The translations under genes were made by a program, and so were the position numbers. DNA of 39,529 nucleotides from Candidatus Peribacteraceae bacterium (GTDB taxonomy: Bacteria; Patescibacteriota; Gracilibacteria; Peribacterales; Peribacteraceae). Below the pieces are notes generated by a model, which saw only the letters and a list, made by a program, of their open reading frames with translations, did not search any database and was not told where the DNA came from. The stretch is taken from positions 1 to 39,529 of the forward strand of contig JAQTQU010000006.1 of NCBI GenBank assembly GCA_028712095.1, given 5' to 3'. Positions 22,462-34,021 of the stretch are shown here, piece by piece (position 1 is the first letter of the stretch; each line of letters opens with the position of its first letter).

Positions 22462-22504
22462 ATGCCGGCGAGTCGGCTCCGGAGCAATAGCCAAAGGGAA
22501 TTCA

Positions 22505-22513
22505 TGCTAAGAT
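22505..22513 (+). promoter_or_regulatory. Extended -10 (TGC-TAAGAT) for the small membrane protein
   Basis: TGCTAAGAT ends 23 bases before ATG 22537, matching the TGC-TAnnnT pattern. Confidence 0.4.
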
Positions 22514-22536
22514 CCCTTCTGCCTTCCCCTCCTCCA

Positions 22537-23001
22537 ATGCCCGAAACAGCCGATCTCGAAATCGAGCTTAAGACAGAAAGCAGTAAAGCCGTGATCACCG
22601 GAAAAACATCCGTGCCCTTCCGCACGTTCGTCGGTCTGGTCCTGCAGCGCAAAGTGTTCCAGCTCTTCAGGCAGTGGGATAAGGAGCCCGTGATTCTCTC
22701 GAGCGAACTCCTCACGCAACTCGCGAGCGCCCCGCAGGACAGCCAGGAAAACCGCGCGCACCTCATCATCGTCACGTTGGGAGTGGGGGCCCTGTTCGGC
22801 GTCTTCGTCTTCGCGCTGGGACAAGTGGCGCTCACGGCACTGGGGTACAACCTCGGTTCCGCGGAACTCATGCTCATCGCCGGAGGACTGGTCTGTCTGG
22901 CCGTGCTCACGGTGGTTTTGGCGCGCCTGCAAAAACTGGCCCGCGCCCAGCGCATCGCGGACATCATGGAGCGCACGGCTTCGTTCCTCTCGAGAAAATA
23001 G
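22537..23001 (+). CDS. Hypothetical two-helix membrane protein
   Basis: The 154-residue protein has a soluble N-terminal half (about 1-75), two membrane helices at about 76-98 and 108-130, and a basic C-terminal helix (LQKLARAQRIADIMERTASF). No family is recognised. ATG 22537 (MPETADLEIELK) is chosen; ATGs at 22504 and 22462 are in frame, but the first follows within the -10 element and the second lies in repeat DNA. It ends nine bases before a palindromic repeat that leads into murB. Confidence 0.7.
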   Translation: MPETADLEIELKTESSKAVITGKTSVPFRTFVGLVLQRKVFQLFRQWDKEPVILSSELLTQLASAPQDSQENRAHLIIVTLGVGALFGVFVFALGQVALTALGYNLGSAELMLIAGGLVCLAVLTVVLARLQKLARAQRIADIMERTASFLSRK

Positions 23002-25227: not shown

Positions 25228-25236
25228 TGCTACGAT
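25228..25236 (+). promoter_or_regulatory. Extended -10 (TGC-TACGAT) for the five-gene exported operon
   Basis: TGCTACGAT ends ten bases before ATG 25247. The heptamer array occupies the region where a -35 would be. It is the only clear promoter before 34021, as the next four genes are spaced by 3 bases or overlap. Confidence 0.5.
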
Positions 25237-25246
25237 ACCGGCCACG

Positions 25247-28200
25247 ATGCGCGTGCGCCTGCAATCCCCTCTCATCATTGTGGCAGGTCTGCTGACGGCA
25301 GCTTCTCTCTCGGTGCGTACTGCGAACGCCCTCAAGATCGACGAGCCTGTTGATTTCACCGCCGTGCAGCAGAATGTGAGTGAAGTGCAAGCGGATATTG
25401 AGAGTGCCCAGTGCGGTGGATGGAATTTCAACGAGCATGTGGAAAGCAGAATCCCCACTGTCACGGGCGCTCCCGGTCGCAAGGGCATCGTCATGGATGC
25501 CGGGGCGCTGGTTCCGGAAGTGGCGGAAGGAGGTCTTGCGAAGCGCGACGAGACGTCGGGAGCATTGGAAGACGGCTTTATCTTCCCGTCTTCGGAGAAG
25601 GCGACTGGCTGGTCCACGGTGTGCGAAGTGTTCGAGTGCGGCAACAGTTACCCATATTTCAGCGAATGTCCAAGAGAACCCCCCTGTAGAAACCCCGAAG
25701 AATGCCGACAGATGTGCCATGATCTGAACGCGTGGGTGAAACGCCACCAGAAGTGCACCGCGCAATGGATACAGCTTGCCGCGGATGGCACTCCGTTCCC
25801 GGCATCCGAGACCATGGAAGAAATGAGCCCCTGCCGGAACATCGACAACGGCGACTGGTGCCTACCGGGCGACGAGTTATGGGCGGGTGTGGACGCCCGT
25901 TTGCAGGATATGCATCCGGATGCGACTGTGACGTGTGCCGTCGATGAGTTGCTCTACTGCTGCTCTGACGCGAAAGTCGATGACCGCGAAACCGATGCGG
26001 AACGCAACTGCATCGCCTGCAGCGGCGACGGCCTCGAGGACCGGAATAATCCGGGCTTTGATGACAACGGAGAGGTTCCCGCTGACCTGGAACAGACCGG
26101 TTGCCGCAAGGGTAAGAACGCGCCCAATGGCCGGGAATACGTCTCCATCTATCGACGTTACCTGGTGAGCTTCGTCCGCGACGCCGTACCGGACGTTCCG
26201 CAGGATGACACGCACCGAGACGACATCCCGGTGGACTGCTACTGCCGGTACGAAGAGTTCGATCCCAAAATCCACCGGACCAAAGAAGAGGATTATCGCT
26301 GTGTCATCACGCTGGACGATGCGAGCAAACGATTCGACGATATGAAAAATTCCCAACAGGGAAAAGGGGAGTACGGCCAAAATTCAGACTTGGCCGACCC
26401 GGCCTACGAACGCGACGCCGGGCGCGATACGCGCAACAATCTGTGGGTCAATGGCTTCAGTGATGCATTTTCGTTATTGAATGGAAAAACGCTCCAATCT
26501 TCACCCAAAGACAACCTCTTTCCCCTACTGCAACTCGACAACGCGGACCTCGTGGCGACGGCGCAACTGGATGCCGGGCGCCCGCTCTCGAGCGGAAGCC
26601 TGATTCGTTCCACGGATGATTCCGTGAATACGAACCGTCCCGGCCGCCGTATGATCACGGAATGGTGGCAGGAACAGCAGACACAGTCCCACAAGCTCTT
26701 CACGGCTTCCGTCCTGCGCCTCATCCTGCCGACCCCGGCTTCCGTCGGGCTGGATCTGTCCGATCCGTTCCTGACCCCGCGAAGTAGTAGCTCCCGGAAT
26801 GCGCGACCCGCGAACCAGCAAATGATCGATGTTCAGATTCACTCCTCGCCCGAGGACCTGCTATCGGAGGTCAGCGCCTACCTGCAGAACGGGCTCCTCC
26901 TGCATGTGCGGGAGGAACCGGTGCCGCTCGTCGTGCCGCTCGCCTCGCCCGTGGAACTGCGCGCGCTCGCGCAGGGCTGGAAACGCTGGGGCGAGGAGCA
27001 GGGACCATTGGATGATGAAGCAAAGATCAAAGCTGCAAGTGCAGCCCAAAAGTTGGAGGACTACGCGGAGCGCATCGATCAGGTGCGGGCACTCCGTGGG
27101 GAGCTGGCCCGGTACATCGGGCGGCTGCTCACCTACCAGGGAACCATGATGCGGGCGATCGGTGATTGGCTGACGCAGAATTACGGAGCCTGGCAGCGCT
27201 ACGCCGCCGTGCGGCAGCAGAGCCTCGCCCTGAAGCCGAAGTGGGAGGAAATCCAACAGAAGTACCGCGTCTTCCATGACCGGACCAACATGCCCTGGTG
27301 CCGCAATGATCGTTTCACGACGCCGGTCTACTCGTTCCTGGATGATTGGATGCCGGGCCCATCCGACAATGACGTGCGCGATCTGCAGTTGAACATCGAC
27401 GATCCCCCGGCTAACGATCTGGAGGAAGAAAAACTCCCGCGCCTGTCGATCGAAATGCTGCCGGACCTCGTGTATGACTTTACGGCATTGCGGGTTTCGA
27501 CCGGCACGGTTCTGTTGCCCGTCCTGACCCCCATCCAGATCCGGCTGAAGCAGTCGCTGTTCAATCCGCCTGCGTTCTACGAAGATATGAACGATGTCTT
27601 CGCGCAGCTCAATGAGTTAATCCAGCTTCCGGATCTTCCGCCCGTGCCATCAATTTATCAGGAGGTGCTGGATAATCTCTTCCCGACCGAAATCATTCAC
27701 CTGTCTTCTCCCTCTCTCATCAATCCGGTCATCGCGGATCTGCCGCCCGAGATCGGGCAGGTGATGGACCGCATCTCGGAAATCATCACGAAAATGGATG
27801 AGACGTATAAAACGTTCTGGGACAGCATCACGACCTACCCGGAACAGGATGTCCCCGAGAAAAAATGGGACTGCCGGAATCTCAAAGTGATGCCATGTAT
27901 CCACGTCGAAATGGATCTCCTGGAGCGCTTCACGCGTATCGGAGCCCGCCCTGCCGTTCAGCTGAAGGAGGACCTTGATGCGCGAGGCCTGCAGCGGACG
28001 GCTGTCGTCAAAGATACGCATTCAGATGAACGGCTCCCGAGCACGAAATTCGTCCCGCCGACGGCCAATCCCCCCTGCCCGCGCGAGGACTGGGCCTGCC
28101 AGATCCTCAATGTGCAGAAAACATTCGCCCGCGAGGGATGGCGTGTGGAGGGCATAAAGGAAGATTTGAACAAGGAAGATCTTGCCAACCTGCGTAACCG

Positions 28201-28345
28201 GCTGAGAAAGCAAACAATCCCCGGCAACAGCAGTAGTTCCTTCCCCTACACCGTCACGCCGGAGGATATGCTGCCTTCTTTCAACCTGCCCTCCCCCATC
28301 TCGCTCCCGACCACCCGTTTCCGGCAGAGCAGCTCTTCCCCGTAA
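25247..28345 (+). CDS. Large exported cysteine-rich protein (operon gene 1), unknown function
   Basis: The 1032-residue protein begins with a classical Sec signal peptide (hydrophobic core about 8-22, likely cleavage after TANA at 28). Residues about 45-370 are cysteine-rich: about 19 of 24 cysteines are here, in patterns such as VCEVFEC, SECPREPPC, LLYCCSD, NCIAC and DCYC, suggesting a disulfide-stabilised domain. The middle (about 530-680) is helical with PVPLVVPLASPVELRALAQ and a long amphipathic stretch. The C-terminal third is Pro-rich with further Cys pairs (CRNLKVMPC, PCPREDWAC). Three short serine runs (SSSS) and a C-terminal SSSSP look like linkers. No known family is recognised. Gene 2 starts three bases after the stop. 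Confidence 0.85.
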   Translation: MRVRLQSPLIIVAGLLTAASLSVRTANALKIDEPVDFTAVQQNVSEVQADIESAQCGGWNFNEHVESRIPTVTGAPGRKGIVMDAGALVPEVAEGGLAKRDETSGALEDGFIFPSSEKATGWSTVCEVFECGNSYPYFSECPREPPCRNPEECRQMCHDLNAWVKRHQKCTAQWIQLAADGTPFPASETMEEMSPCRNIDNGDWCLPGDELWAGVDARLQDMHPDATVTCAVDELLYCCSDAKVDDRETDAERNCIACSGDGLEDRNNPGFDDNGEVPADLEQTGCRKGKNAPNGREYVSIYRRYLVSFVRDAVPDVPQDDTHRDDIPVDCYCRYEEFDPKIHRTKEEDYRCVITLDDASKRFDDMKNSQQGKGEYGQNSDLADPAYERDAGRDTRNNLWVNGFSDAFSLLNGKTLQSSPKDNLFPLLQLDNADLVATAQLDAGRPLSSGSLIRSTDDSVNTNRPGRRMITEWWQEQQTQSHKLFTASVLRLILPTPASVGLDLSDPFLTPRSSSSRNARPANQQMIDVQIHSSPEDLLSEVSAYLQNGLLLHVREEPVPLVVPLASPVELRALAQGWKRWGEEQGPLDDEAKIKAASAAQKLEDYAERIDQVRALRGELARYIGRLLTYQGTMMRAIGDWLTQNYGAWQRYAAVRQQSLALKPKWEEIQQKYRVFHDRTNMPWCRNDRFTTPVYSFLDDWMPGPSDNDVRDLQLNIDDPPANDLEEEKLPRLSIEMLPDLVYDFTALRVSTGTVLLPVLTPIQIRLKQSLFNPPAFYEDMNDVFAQLNELIQLPDLPPVPSIYQEVLDNLFPTEIIHLSSPSLINPVIADLPPEIGQVMDRISEIITKMDETYKTFWDSITTYPEQDVPEKKWDCRNLKVMPCIHVEMDLLERFTRIGARPAVQLKEDLDARGLQRTAVVKDTHSDERLPSTKFVPPTANPPCPREDWACQILNVQKTFAREGWRVEGIKEDLNKEDLANLRNRLRKQTIPGNSSSSFPYTVTPEDMLPSFNLPSPISLPTTRFRQSSSSP

Positions 28346-28348
28346 ACG

Positions 28349-29182
28349 ATGACCCTTCGTCCATTTCTTCTTTGGCCTCTCGCGCTCCTGCTGCTGATCC
28401 TGCCGGTGATCAGCTGGTCGGAGCCTGTCGTCAACGCCGATGTCGCAACATGCCGTGCGCTGGTGGAAAAAGCTCTCTCCAAAGAGCAGCGCCTGTACCG
28501 CAGCGTCCTCTTCGGTCAGAAGAAAGCACAAGATGCTCCGATCAACGAAATCCGCTTCGACACGGACGGCATTCCGTGGATCAAGGAAAAGGATAATACC
28601 TGGCGCTCGGTCTCGCCGGGTTACGAAGATACGGATCGGAGCGACACGCAGATGAGTGACCGGAACGAACTGCCTGTGCGCAAAGGGATTTTCGAAACCC
28701 GCCGGGTCGCGACTTCGGATCTGGTGCCCTACCTCACGCAGGCATACCGCGCTCTCAAGTGCCGTTCCACGATCGTCTGCAAGGTTGTGGAGAATTCCCT
28801 GGGACAGGGGAGCGCCGAGCCGCAGGAGGTGATCGTGACTGTACCCGGGTGCATCGAGGAAAAGCGAAAAACCTTCCCGGGCTGTCACCTGTACGCAGCG
28901 GAACGCAGCAGGGTGGAGGAGGCCGATCTGCTTACCTATTGCCGCCTGGTGCGGGACGGTATGGTGGAGCGCGAGAAAGATCTGCTCAAGCTGACGACGG
29001 AATATGACGCCTCGTATCGCTCCCTACTCCAGCTGTCGGGGCACATGGATGCTTTCCTGCAGGAATTCCGCTGGCCGCTCACAAACTCTCTGCGCAAGAC
29101 CGCAGAGCTTGTCGGCGCCCTGTATCGCATCCCCTGCTTCATCGCCAGTTGCGATGAGGCCCCCGCACCCAATCCGGATTAA
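28349..29182 (+). CDS. Exported helical protein (operon gene 2), unknown function
   Basis: The 277-residue protein has an N-terminal signal or anchor segment (about 6-22, FLLWPLALLLLILPVISW). The rest is mostly helical, with paired cysteines near LKCRSTIVCKVV and GCIEEKRKTFPGC. The C-terminal part contains YDASYRSLLQLSGHMDAFLQ and a C-x4-C pair (C263, C268) followed by DE, then a short Pro-rich tail. The same C-x4-C plus acidic/amide pair occurs at C477/C482 of gene 5. No known family is recognised. It is three bases downstream of gene 1 and its stop overlaps the next start by one base (TAATG). Confidence 0.8.
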   Translation: MTLRPFLLWPLALLLLILPVISWSEPVVNADVATCRALVEKALSKEQRLYRSVLFGQKKAQDAPINEIRFDTDGIPWIKEKDNTWRSVSPGYEDTDRSDTQMSDRNELPVRKGIFETRRVATSDLVPYLTQAYRALKCRSTIVCKVVENSLGQGSAEPQEVIVTVPGCIEEKRKTFPGCHLYAAERSRVEEADLLTYCRLVRDGMVEREKDLLKLTTEYDASYRSLLQLSGHMDAFLQEFRWPLTNSLRKTAELVGALYRIPCFIASCDEAPAPNPD

Positions 29183-29967
29183 TGATTTCCCGCAATGCGC
29201 GCATCGTCGGCCTGATCGTCTTCCTCCTGCTGGCGGCGCTCTGTGCCGGCATCGTCGCCAACTCGAAAAAACTCACGGCGACGAGCGTCAGCCTTCTCAT
29301 GAAACGCGAAGCCGAGAATTCCATCCTGACCCCCTGCTCCCGCTTCACGGAGAGTTACATGCAGCTTCCCTTCGGGGATACCAATTTCGCCCGGTGGCCG
29401 AAGCTGTACCACGAAACCGCCGCGGCCGTCATCGAAGAGCACCTTCAGTCGTTTTCACGCGCGCCGCAGTGCGCCGCGGCAACGGGGAATGACGTGCTCC
29501 CGGGCGGACCCAAATTGCAGGAGCTGTCCAAAAAGCTCCCCAGTTGGAAAAGCACATCCGTCAGTCAGTGGGAGATGAGTTCCGTTCTGCTGGAGTATCT
29601 GCGCGCGTACGAGTGCGCCCTGGAGGAGAGGCTCTACTTCCTCCACCCGGATGCGATGAAGGAGCTGGAAAGCAAACTGGAAGCCAAGGGAGAGTCCACT
29701 GATATCCTGCTGGGAGGACTGATCGCGGAGGTGGCGGAAGAGGATCGAATCATCGCTCAGGAGCTCGTGACCGCCCGGCCCACGCTCAATCGCTCGCTTG
29801 CCGTGTTGGCAGGCCTGAGCCGTCTGCTCCCGCTCCATACGGAGCTGCAGTGCATCGAGCGCGCCTCAATCGACATCCGTAATGCTCTCGCCCTTGGTGC
29901 GGAGGCCGGGTCCTGCCTGCCCCGCATCTGGAATGCCAAAGATCCGCTTCGTGATCTGCCCCAGTGA
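29182..29967 (+). CDS. Exported or anchored helical protein (operon gene 3), unknown function
   Basis: The 261-residue protein has one N-terminal hydrophobic segment (about 8-25, IVGLIVFLLLAALCAGIV) after a basic start, fitting a signal anchor. The outside part is helical with few cysteines: CSRFTESY, PQCAAATG, YECALEE, ELQCIERA and GSCLPRIW. LLEYLRAYECALEERL resembles the VPYLTQAYRALKC helix of gene 2, suggesting related folds. No family match is recognised. Translation starts one base before the previous stop and its TGA overlaps the GTG of gene 4. Confidence 0.8.
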   Translation: MISRNARIVGLIVFLLLAALCAGIVANSKKLTATSVSLLMKREAENSILTPCSRFTESYMQLPFGDTNFARWPKLYHETAAAVIEEHLQSFSRAPQCAAATGNDVLPGGPKLQELSKKLPSWKSTSVSQWEMSSVLLEYLRAYECALEERLYFLHPDAMKELESKLEAKGESTDILLGGLIAEVAEEDRIIAQELVTARPTLNRSLAVLAGLSRLLPLHTELQCIERASIDIRNALALGAEAGSCLPRIWNAKDPLRDLPQ

Positions 29968-32456
29968 AACGCCTCTTCGCTTTCGCCGGCTTCGCTTTGC
30001 TGCTCCTGACCGCAGGCGGTGCTTGTGCTCAAAGTCTCGGCGACCTGCAACTCTACGAAAACATGCATACAATCACTCTGCAGGAACGCACGCTGGAGGG
30101 CGTCGACGAACAAATCATCAGCTACGTCGTTCAACTGGCGCAGCAGGAGAATATGATCCCTGAAGGTAAAACCGCGTCAGATATGACCGAGGTGGTGAAA
30201 GCGGCTTTCGAAACGCGGCTCGATGATTTTTGCGAGAAATATAACGGCACATTTGACGCCTGTCCGCAGACGTACCAGATGTTCCGCGACTGGGGCATGG
30301 ATATCATCGACACACGCACGCTCTCGACGGATCTGCTCCACATTGCGGCAGGCTACGAAACGGGTGTGATCGGAAACATGGGTGAAATCTTCACCATTGC
30401 GGAACGCACGCTCACAATCCGGAATCTCTGGCGCAGCGCGGATGACGCCCTGCTGACCCCCGAGGTTTTTCCGCTCATCCGTGCCGTCCCCCGGCCGGAT
30501 AGCGTGACGGACGGCATGTTCGATGCCGTGTCAGAGGCCCTTGGACGGGAGCAGGCATCTGCGGGAAGTGTCAACCGGTACCGCTACGGCATCGCCGTAT
30601 TCGACCGAGAGCCGTGCAGGGAATCCCAGGGACCGAATGAGCTGTTTGAGGCAACAGAAGCACGTAATTGCACATTGGAACGCGCCCTCACCGCTATCCG
30701 CAACGCGCTTCCGCAAGACCCCCTTACTTTCGATCCCCCTCTCGCACGGGGAGAGATCGTCATCTTCCCTCTTCGGATTCTGGAGACTCCGCCCAACGTC
30801 ATCGTCTGGATGATGGTGGAGAATGTGAACAGCGAGATCAGACGGGACGTTGGTCTTGGCTGGCAGTTGATGCTCGAAACAGTGCCCATCGGAATATTGG
30901 GTGGCGATAACTGCGATCCGGGCAAGATGGGCGAATCATACTGCACGGTCTTTGACCGCTTTCTGATCCGCCCCGGCGGCAGGTACGAAGACCCTCCCAG
31001 GGAACCCACGGAACAGGAGGGGGGCCTGTGCCATCTGCCCTTCGCACGCGACGGCTACCTCTGCCGCCCGATGCGGCATGACCGGTGCAATGCCGACATT
31101 GAGGATAAAGAACCCGACTCGATCGTGTTGACGGAATGCAAGCCCGCACAGGCCAAGCAACCCGTCGCACTCACAGAATCCGGTCCCGATATCTGCCGCA
31201 CAAGCTGGTGGCGCATCCCGTCAGAGGAACTCAAAAATATGTCACCGCCATCGGCAGATCAGGATGGGCCGCTGCCACTGGGAGACTGTGCTCTCTGCCG
31301 CCTCGATGTGCGCTGCAAGGATGATTGTATGGACGGGGCTTCGGCCGTCACCGAACCCAAAGACGACAACGGCGTGATTCACATTTGCATTAATAGAAGC
31401 GCACCACGCGCGGTCCTGCGCACCAATCTCATCCACGAATTGGTGCATACCCAGCAGTTGTGCAACCTGCCGCCGCATACCAAGATTTTCGACACCGTCG
31501 AGCGTTGCTGCGCAAGCGAGATGGAAGCCAATACGGTTTCCTGCCGTGTGCTCGCCGAGGACGGTGTGCTCGATGAGGCCGGTGTTTCGATTGAGGAATG
31601 TACCGGAGGATTGGCAAATATCAGTTGCAAGAATTACGGCGAGAAGCCGTGCTCGGATCTCAGTGCTGCGGATGTCAAAGACAAGATCGAGGAGGTGCTG
31701 AACCGCAAAGAGCGGGAACCCGGCAGTAATTTCCCCTCCTGCGACGAAGTCAGCGCGGAATGGTTGAAAGGCATCGCCAAACTCGATGCCCGCATCATCT
31801 CGATGATCGAGGGTCTCAACGGCGCCTGTTCCCCCGGCTGCCAGACCAAGTACCAGAACACTATCGGCAACAATCTCTGCTACATCGGCCAGTGCGTGGA
31901 GCAATCCATCGAGCAATCGCGCGTCATTCCGGGCCGTATGGCGCTCAACGTGGGCGATGAATCTTTCCCTTGGGATTCCTGCGCGGCGACGGATTCGCTG
32001 ACGGGCGGGTTGATCACGCTCCCCGCCGTCTCGCCGCCTCTCACCCCCGCCTACAATCCGCGCCTGCTCGTGGAGTCGCTGGATCGCGCACTCTGTCAGC
32101 TGAACGGTCTCCCTGCCATGACCCCGCCGATTCTCTGCCAGTTCGACTACGAACGGAGATTGAGTATCCCCACCAGCGATTATGTCTCGACCGCTCTCAG
32201 CTTCGCATCGCAGATCGAGGAGAACGACACGCCGACCGCCTCGCTGCAGCGTATGACCCAGGGCATGGGAACGCGTATCGGCACCTCGCTGCTGACGCGT
32301 TACCTCTCATGGGCGAGCATGGCGCTCTCCGATTCCCTGCGCGCGGGCAATCAGCTGCTCAATGCAATGGAAAATACAAAATTCCCGCTCTCGACCTGTC
32401 CGCGTACCGCGACGGAAAAACCTGATTTCTGTACTGCTTCGTCTTCCTCGGATTAA
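29964..32456 (+). CDS. Exported cysteine-rich protein with HExxH metallopeptidase motif (operon gene 4)
   Basis: The 830-residue protein starts at GTG 29964, overlapping the previous TGA by four bases. A signal peptide (MKRLFAFAGFALLLLTAGG, cleavage near ACA at 22) leads to a helical N-terminal half and a Cys cluster DCALCRLDVRCKDDC (about 441-455). It then has LIHELVHTQQL, with H491, E492 and H495 forming an HExxH zinc site, and ASEMEANTVSCRVL, where E519 or E521 could be the third ligand as in gluzincins. The spacing and E-x-EAN form recall ImmA/IrrE-type peptidases, but the surroundings differ. About 37 cysteines in total suggest heavy disulfide bonding. It ends SSSSD. It may process or degrade surface proteins; substrate unknown. 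Confidence 0.85.
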   Translation: MKRLFAFAGFALLLLTAGGACAQSLGDLQLYENMHTITLQERTLEGVDEQIISYVVQLAQQENMIPEGKTASDMTEVVKAAFETRLDDFCEKYNGTFDACPQTYQMFRDWGMDIIDTRTLSTDLLHIAAGYETGVIGNMGEIFTIAERTLTIRNLWRSADDALLTPEVFPLIRAVPRPDSVTDGMFDAVSEALGREQASAGSVNRYRYGIAVFDREPCRESQGPNELFEATEARNCTLERALTAIRNALPQDPLTFDPPLARGEIVIFPLRILETPPNVIVWMMVENVNSEIRRDVGLGWQLMLETVPIGILGGDNCDPGKMGESYCTVFDRFLIRPGGRYEDPPREPTEQEGGLCHLPFARDGYLCRPMRHDRCNADIEDKEPDSIVLTECKPAQAKQPVALTESGPDICRTSWWRIPSEELKNMSPPSADQDGPLPLGDCALCRLDVRCKDDCMDGASAVTEPKDDNGVIHICINRSAPRAVLRTNLIHELVHTQQLCNLPPHTKIFDTVERCCASEMEANTVSCRVLAEDGVLDEAGVSIEECTGGLANISCKNYGEKPCSDLSAADVKDKIEEVLNRKEREPGSNFPSCDEVSAEWLKGIAKLDARIISMIEGLNGACSPGCQTKYQNTIGNNLCYIGQCVEQSIEQSRVIPGRMALNVGDESFPWDSCAATDSLTGGLITLPAVSPPLTPAYNPRLLVESLDRALCQLNGLPAMTPPILCQFDYERRLSIPTSDYVSTALSFASQIEENDTPTASLQRMTQGMGTRIGTSLLTRYLSWASMALSDSLRAGNQLLNAMENTKFPLSTCPRTATEKPDFCTASSSSD

Positions 32457-34021
32457 TGACACGCATGTCTTTGCTGCTCACCGGCCTCTCGTTGCTCACG
32501 TTCCCTCCGATGGTGCTGGCGGCCGGAGATCAGTACGCCGATCTGCCCCCGGTCTCACCCTACATGGAGCGCGTTGTGCGCCGCGTCCGCGCGGGGCTCG
32601 ATGCCGCAGGGGGCGGCAATACCTCCTCCGACCGTGCACTCAAGCTGTTCTGGCTCGACAGGATCACCGGCGCCATCCTGCTGACGGTCGATACGGATCT
32701 GCGCATCGTCGAGCAGCAGCAGGATCTGATTGAGAATTCCCCGTGCCTGCGTCTCGATACGCTGATCATCGAGGGATGGATGGAACGCGCGAGAATCCGC
32801 AAGAATGATGCCATTGATGCAGGACGCATTTCGGAAGCCGTGAAGTTGATCTCTATGCAGCGGTACCTGAACAACCGCTACAAAGCACTCCTGCTGGGCG
32901 CACGGGATCCCACGTACGTGGATGAAGAGGAGGGAGAAGTGTACTCCTTCGATCCACCGCCCTTCTGGTGCTGCCCCGGAGATACGGACCAGGAAGGGGA
33001 GGAAAGGAATACCACCTGTGCACAGGTGGACGAGAATGGATATACGGAATGCATACAGAACAGAGGAACTGCCTTCAAGCGACGGTACGCGTGCGTACAG
33101 GCAGGATGTACCTCGACGGAAACGGGGGGGGAGGATGAAGAGGAGCCCTGTCCCTTCAGTACCGATTATCTGCCGCCCACCGGAGTGGGATACGGTTGCG
33201 ATCTCTCGGTGCTGGAGAGCCGATCGAACGGTCCTGAAGGCATCAGCAGGGAAATAGAAGGCCTGAAGAAACTGGTGGAAGACCGGGATGCCGCCATTGC
33301 GGACATCGGCACGGTCAAAGACACCATCGTGAATCTCGAGCGGCTTCTGGGCGGAGGAGAAACGGACCTTTCGAATTTCGGAGCGGGGGCGGGCAGCAAG
33401 CGGACACACAAAGTGAAGAACGGTTGCCTCGCGGAAGACGAGAAGCTCCCCGAAGGGATCACCTTCTGGGAGCGGCGCGGGCCTTTCTCGTTTTCATCGA
33501 ACGAAATCGTTCTCATGCCCAAGCTCGCCCTCCTGTGGAACAGTTGGGGCAGCCAGCGCCTCCCCCCCGCGTATCTGCGCAATGCCAACGAACTACAGGA
33601 TGGCACCCCCGAGAAAGAGGCCGCGCAGAACATGGAAAACAGCATGCTCTTCTGGCTTCTGGGCGCGCGCTTTGATGTGCAGCAATACCTGCAAAAATTC
33701 AGTCTGCAGCAAGCCAGGGAGGAGAGCATGCAGGTCGCCAAAACCATCGACGCCCCTCTCCGGGTGATGGAAACATTGGTGCCTCTGCGTAAAGAGGTGC
33801 GTAATCTCGCCCTGACCGTGCAAGCATCGGATACAGGTATACGAAAATTCGTGCGCGATTTTGCCGCCTTCCTGCGCACCTCCTGCATCTTCCGTCCCTG
33901 CAACGAACAACTGGACCGTGTCCTCAAGATCATCTTCAAAGATGAATGCTTCCCCTACATCAATGGCGCGGCCTTAGACGAGGATGTCGCAGATAAGTGT
34001 AAAAATGCAGCAGGACTGTGA
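32456..34021 (+). CDS. Exported protein with helical repeats (operon gene 5), unknown function
   Basis: The 521-residue protein has a signal peptide (MTRMSLLLTGLSLLTFPPMV, likely cleavage after LA at 22). A helical domain (about 30-145) is followed by a compact Cys-rich segment (about 160-240: FWCCPGD, TCAQ, YTEC, YACVQAGC, PCPF, YGCDL). A coiled-coil-like stretch (about 260-305) and a helical C-terminal domain follow, with C477-x4-C482 then NE as in gene 2. No known family is recognised. It starts one base before the gene 4 stop (TAATG) and closes the operon; a repeat-filled gap follows. Confidence 0.83.
   Translation: MTRMSLLLTGLSLLTFPPMVLAAGDQYADLPPVSPYMERVVRRVRAGLDAAGGGNTSSDRALKLFWLDRITGAILLTVDTDLRIVEQQQDLIENSPCLRLDTLIIEGWMERARIRKNDAIDAGRISEAVKLISMQRYLNNRYKALLLGARDPTYVDEEEGEVYSFDPPPFWCCPGDTDQEGEERNTTCAQVDENGYTECIQNRGTAFKRRYACVQAGCTSTETGGEDEEEPCPFSTDYLPPTGVGYGCDLSVLESRSNGPEGISREIEGLKKLVEDRDAAIADIGTVKDTIVNLERLLGGGETDLSNFGAGAGSKRTHKVKNGCLAEDEKLPEGITFWERRGPFSFSSNEIVLMPKLALLWNSWGSQRLPPAYLRNANELQDGTPEKEAAQNMENSMLFWLLGARFDVQQYLQKFSLQQAREESMQVAKTIDAPLRVMETLVPLRKEVRNLALTVQASDTGIRKFVRDFAAFLRTSCIFRPCNEQLDRVLKIIFKDECFPYINGAALDEDVADKCKNAAGL

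Follow-up and report, generated by a model that had tools for sequence, protein, structure and literature searches.

A five-gene operon of exported proteins in Peribacteraceae as the probable short form of a system found across Gracilibacteria in the broad sense

We identified an operon of five genes (g1 to g5) for exported proteins in a 39,529-nucleotide stretch of DNA from a Candidatus Peribacteraceae bacterium (contig JAQTQU010000006.1), the whole of which is called the window here. Judged from sequence, this operon is the short form of a class-wide five-gene system, defined by a g1 core with g2, g3, g4 and g5 downstream of it on one strand, the arrangement seen in the window. 'Class' denotes the genome grouping that holds Peribacteraceae together with genomes reading UGA as glycine, and is taken as Gracilibacteria in the broad sense. 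The five-gene set probably serves these host-dependent microbes as a common cell-surface device. The initial annotation of the window had set conserved gene order across relatives with no described homologue beforehand as its test, and this is what was found.

The five open reading frames (ORFs) all lie on the forward strand and are separated by 3, -1, -4 and -1 bases: g1 (25247..28345, 1032 aa), g2 (28349..29182, 277 aa), g3 (29182..29967, 261 aa), g4 (29964..32456, 830 aa, GTG start) and g5 (32456..34021, 521 aa, with a conserved C-terminal Cys module), with start codons assigned by rule. Lengths and spacings are exactly those first reported, and the end of the reported span stands; its start, 25228, is out of frame, the g1 ATG being at 25247. 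The claim of a single operon is borne out by the tight packing and by the gene order conserved in relatives. Against two close relatives (L029, L031), the ratio of nonsynonymous to synonymous substitution rates (dN/dS) is 0.09–0.13 for g1 to g5, and at about 0.1 all five are read as genes under purifying constraint. The operon is not a chance arrangement, since dN/dS is low and 11 further genera of the family have the same ORFs in the same order with overlapping joints, at about 30% identity (one of them, L024, showing g4 and g5 only). A TACGAT box about 11 bases upstream of the g1 ATG (25228–25247) would fit a leaderless start; a promoter scan gave nothing above chance.

A signal peptide or anchor had been proposed for each protein, and an N-terminal hydrophobic stretch was present in every member checked. 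It was the only such stretch, with no second transmembrane-like segment, in nine of nine g1 proteins and in every g2 to g5 protein examined (45 from Peribacteraceae and 84 others). The proteins are also rich in Cys, as first described: g1 to g5 contain 24, 8, 6, 34 and 14 Cys, and at 14, 8, 5, 20 and 8 alignment columns, respectively, Cys is shared by 80% or more of the relatives. The reported lack of known domains was reproduced, as none of the five proteins passes any Pfam cut-off and no NCBIfam family passes in any of them either. Profile searches of the family alignments (A1–A5) against the PDB returned chance or coiled-coil-like matches only. An AlphaFold2 model of g2 (mean predicted local distance difference test score, pLDDT, 81) shows an elongated, helical protein, one helix of which spans 70 residues, and Foldseek gave no match to it under E 0.001. 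Ribosome recycling factors ranked first in a VIA comparison of g2 with Z 11, and since this is below the level advised for helical bundles, we read the likeness as a common three-helix arrangement.

Within Peribacteraceae, the order g1 to g5 is unchanged in the other genera read (11; in L024 only g4 and g5 are visible, the contig starting inside g4) and recurs in most of 20 further loci of the family. The operon adjoins DnaE in 11 of 11 other genera; wherever the locus was fully read (ten genera), it also adjoins SSB, which is encoded on the opposite strand. GltX, MurB and Sua5 are usually retained farther away. Identities among family genera are mostly 25–45% for the operon proteins and 61–73% for DnaE, and we therefore read the block as fast-evolving yet vertically inherited. 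Pairwise distances among g1 to g5 correlate with each other at r 0.76–0.87, compared with r 0.63–0.80 when set against those of DnaE. In four genomes (G188, G437, G438, G439) DnaE and SSB are directly adjacent with no operon gene between them, and profile searches for the g1 core, g3 and g5 detected none of them at other places in these genomes; the operon can therefore be missing. A g4 pattern scan over 84,980 species yielded 20 confirmed loci, all with Peribacteria/Peregrinibacteria or unspecific titles except one Kiritimatiellales contig. That contig (L044) carries a Peribacteraceae-type operon and is probably misbinned. A 179-aa ORF without a family (22462–23001) lies between GltX and MurB in the window, as in most family genera.

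The first lead beyond Peribacteraceae came from faint g5-profile matches in two other families, each of which lay beside a g1-like ORF of more than 2,300 aa with three further exported genes in between. The class profiles were run on Patescibacteria only, the sets outside the class being samples, and many genomes are fragmented, so that absence from one genome says little. The conserved g1 core (aa 520–810, 26804..27676 on the forward strand of the window; profile A11) was found in 288 of 353 class genomes and 172 of 208 genera, and its matches in standard-code families fall mostly within open frames of 3,000–5,800 aa. A sample of 380 genomes across the phylum gave 35 matches to the core, all inside the class, and none among the 343 genomes that belong to other classes of Patescibacteria. 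The g3 profile matched in 215 of the 353 class genomes and in none of 211 sampled genomes outside the class.

A giant g1 followed by g2, g3, g4 and g5 occurs in at least 15 families other than Peribacteraceae. In 19 loci of 14 other families the genes share order and strand and mostly overlap or lie less than 50 bases apart, and the same five-gene order was read at L079, L080 and L193–L195. The proteins that follow the giant have approximately 180–260, 200–310, 490–920 and 330–650 aa in slots 2 to 5. Profile–profile comparison (hhalign, %) of Peribacteraceae with the class gave 97.8 for g1, 96.2 for g2, 96.4 for g3, 90.6 for g5 and 54 for g4, with all off-diagonal comparisons of class to Peribacteraceae slots below 15. 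We regard slot-for-slot homology of g1, g2, g3 and g5 as firm; that of g4 appears weak, with the correspondence made mainly by position, and a test through intermediate sequences did not strengthen its match to slot 4 of other families. The g2 and g3 families match each other within the class set (94.7) and are considered paralogous.

The arrangement varies among lineages. In families f148 and f141 (L190, L191) the g2 to g5 block is kept together away from the giant. Lineages reading UGA as glycine have the giant mostly without adjoining partners and carry g3-like genes elsewhere; in one genome among them (L217) four exported genes come directly after the giant, and two of these match slots 3 and 4. 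At L081 (11505–19376) the slot-4 position is taken by a 2,623-aa ORF that contains 259 Cys and matches DUF4215 eight times; DUF4215 also occurs in the slot-4 protein of L163 and in a single Peribacteraceae g5. In family f135 (L214, L215, L216) a g3-like gene lies near genes for proteins of 439–449 and 370–377 aa, which have similar starts in all three loci.

The g1 core comprises a helical segment, a Cys-containing CxxxRF motif, a beta segment and a Pro-rich LPDLPPxP stretch, and is common to the giants. Long giant ORFs in six genomes, two of them in genetic code 25, measure 4,171–5,462 aa, the longest (L182) running to the end of its DNA stretch; giants whose full length could be read have about 4,500–5,400 aa. 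Various giants carry SLH, TSP3_bac, FG-GAP and DUF11-type repeats. An FG-GAP match lies N-terminal of the core in four of four giants scanned, and SLH was found near the C-terminus in L179 (2.6e-7) as well as in L079 (6e-8) and L080 (3e-7), two partial sequences with SLH and TSP3 C-terminal of the core. The window g1 has no Pfam match at E 1 and hence none to SLH, TSP3 or FG-GAP. Approximately 35 SLH matches occur elsewhere in its own genome (e.g. ORFs on contigs C1, C4 and C44), so that wall anchoring through SLH is common there, although the window g1 is without it. As the giant form is more widespread, shortening of the Peribacteraceae g1 seems somewhat likelier than extension of the others.

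The first 300–500 aa of the six giants L179–L184 form a common domain (VVLVGDIPLPVV...FPYVDF...PEIWHG) that had no Pfam or PDB sequence match. By eye it may resemble a C25/caspase-like fold, a tentative likeness for which Pfam and PDB sequence searches gave nothing. The domain was not found in 12 Peribacteraceae genomes, in a search without a positive control, and the idea of a giant divided over several Peribacteraceae genes was not supported in a test with the N-terminal profile only. The full-length g1 model is poor (pLDDT 56), and its structure matches, toxin-like rows included, were discarded as meaningless.

The HExxH site noted in gene 4 is present as HELVH (aa 491–495, 31434..31448, forward strand), and most Peribacteraceae g4 have HExxH with a downstream conserved Glu. 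HExxH is altered in L020 and L025 and was not found in L040, the whole domain is missing in L026 and L027, which retain the operon, and none of 21 slot-4 proteins of other families has the motif. The site lies within a Peribacteraceae-only insertion, outside the conserved system. Its surrounding region aligns weakly with Peptidase M76 and DUF6782, but at 14.3 and 12.9 bits the matches stay far below the curated cut-offs (25.2 and 27).

We favour, at roughly even confidence, the view that the five proteins form an extracellular complex at the cell surface, which would be ancestral to Gracilibacteria in the broad sense and is so far known from that class alone. Giant-form g1 would be the scaffold or stalk, its C-terminal end held to the cell wall, and the elongated, helical, Cys-bearing g2 to g5 would assemble on the g1 core, where we place them because the core alone remains in Peribacteraceae while all four partners are kept. 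Less surely, such a complex may serve attachment to or contact with a host, prey or surface, a role suggested by the adhesin-type modules and by the dependence on hosts that has been reported or proposed for relatives (PMC8080830, PMC4736985). Export signals and deep conservation are seen directly; complex formation and role are inferred. Coupled translation had been taken to indicate a fixed stoichiometric complex, which coupling by itself does not show. The earlier suggestion of an undescribed surface or secretion apparatus survives in its first half, through the giant relatives of g1, several with SLH; for secretion the evidence is weak and circumstantial. Several observations weigh against the complex as we picture it: SLH is absent from Peribacteraceae g1 and was not detected in giants L184, L181 and L183 (E 0.01), g4 shows weak homology between families of the class, the operon is lacking in some genomes of the family, and the case for attachment comes only from the accompanying domains and the lifestyle.

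The main competing explanation, which we think unlikely, is that g1 to g5 are exterior parts of a secretion or DNA-transfer machine resembling a type IV secretion system (T4SS), with g2 and g3 as minor helical subunits. In three genera of family f134 a g3-like gene lies directly downstream of a gene for a coupling-protein-like ATPase, approximately 60% identical among them (L189:6072-9463, L212:9923-13563, L218:6152-9498), and one of these pairs adjoins a T4SS pilin gene; these sites hold g3 only, without the rest of the block. T4SS pilin genes also lie about 6 kb downstream of the giant at L174, and the genome of the window (G000) has several T4SS_pilin (PF18895) domains, partly arrayed in tandem, on contigs other than that of the window (C13:43544-44775, C5:10671-11775, C28:1013-1560, C65:7224-7397 and C43:8575-8775; L220–L224). 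Against this, a Pfam scan of the main window genes detected no VirB4, VirB6 or pilin gene, nor was one recognised next to the operon at the loci that were read, where most neighbours were unscanned. The five families had no match to a T4SS subunit in Pfam, NCBIfam or PDB sequences, which leaves room for a very remote relation.

Somewhat less likely still is a role in building or organising a general protein coat (S-layer) in place of a contact device. Proteins of about 4,500–5,400 aa are unusual as S-layer subunits, which counts against a coat, as do the lack of SLH in Peribacteraceae g1 and the other SLH matches in its own genome, which could serve a coat themselves. The giants with SLH near the C-terminus resemble SLH-domain S-layer associated proteins, but g2 to g5 have no counterpart in any SLH system found. 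In favour of a coat are the SLH domains of these giants and the S-layer proteins that Peribacteria genomes encode (PMC4736985). We give little credence to the idea that the five exported proteins have separate envelope roles and are grouped for co-expression only. Conserved order alone is no proof of physical interaction, and the neighbours of the operon are housekeeping genes; yet g2 to g5 remain one block where the giant lies elsewhere, and in Peribacteraceae it is just the g1 core that was kept with the partners. An extracellular zinc protease complex with g4 as its enzyme, to which the HExxH site with its conserved Glu and the faint M76 similarity could point, is very improbable, since the operon persists where motif or domain is lost and the motif is missing from slot 4 elsewhere.

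Returning to a cell-surface complex, very large proteins of this group have precedents. Moreira et al. 2021 (PMC8080830) describe giant membrane proteins with DUF11 or integrin-type modules in Vampirococcus lugosii and propose that they act in host recognition, and huge proteins are enriched in Peregrinibacteria (PMC11573180). The giants of our loci are like these in very large size and, for Vampirococcus, in such modules; compared by description only, they differ in that the accessible portions of the two papers mention neither a conserved core nor an operon or partner genes. Anantharaman et al. 2016 (PMC4736985) report large Cys-rich extracellular proteins in Candidatus Peribacter, with a proposed role in attachment. 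Those belong to the same family and are likewise exported and Cys-rich, with DUF4215-type Cys repeats in slots 4 and 5 of some relatives, but the operon genes have 2–4% Cys, and the operon is not described in the portion of that paper available to us. No description of the five-gene operon was found in the literature, most subscription papers and supplements lying outside the search, so that novelty is not proven.

In a bolder and more tentative form, for which we would claim less than for a surface complex as such, the set may be a lineage-defining extracellular machine in which a giant scaffold bound to the wall carries four helical subunit families that co-evolve; it would date back to the last common ancestor of Gracilibacteria in the broad sense, engage host or prey cells and have no counterpart in other bacteria. 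These microbes include bacterial predators and presumed episymbionts, whose hold on other cells is largely unexplained. Their giant or huge proteins had been noted, and not explained, in earlier work (PMC8080830, PMC11573180). The five-gene set, with its recognisable core, gives such proteins a family, a list of partners and a target for localisation and structural work.
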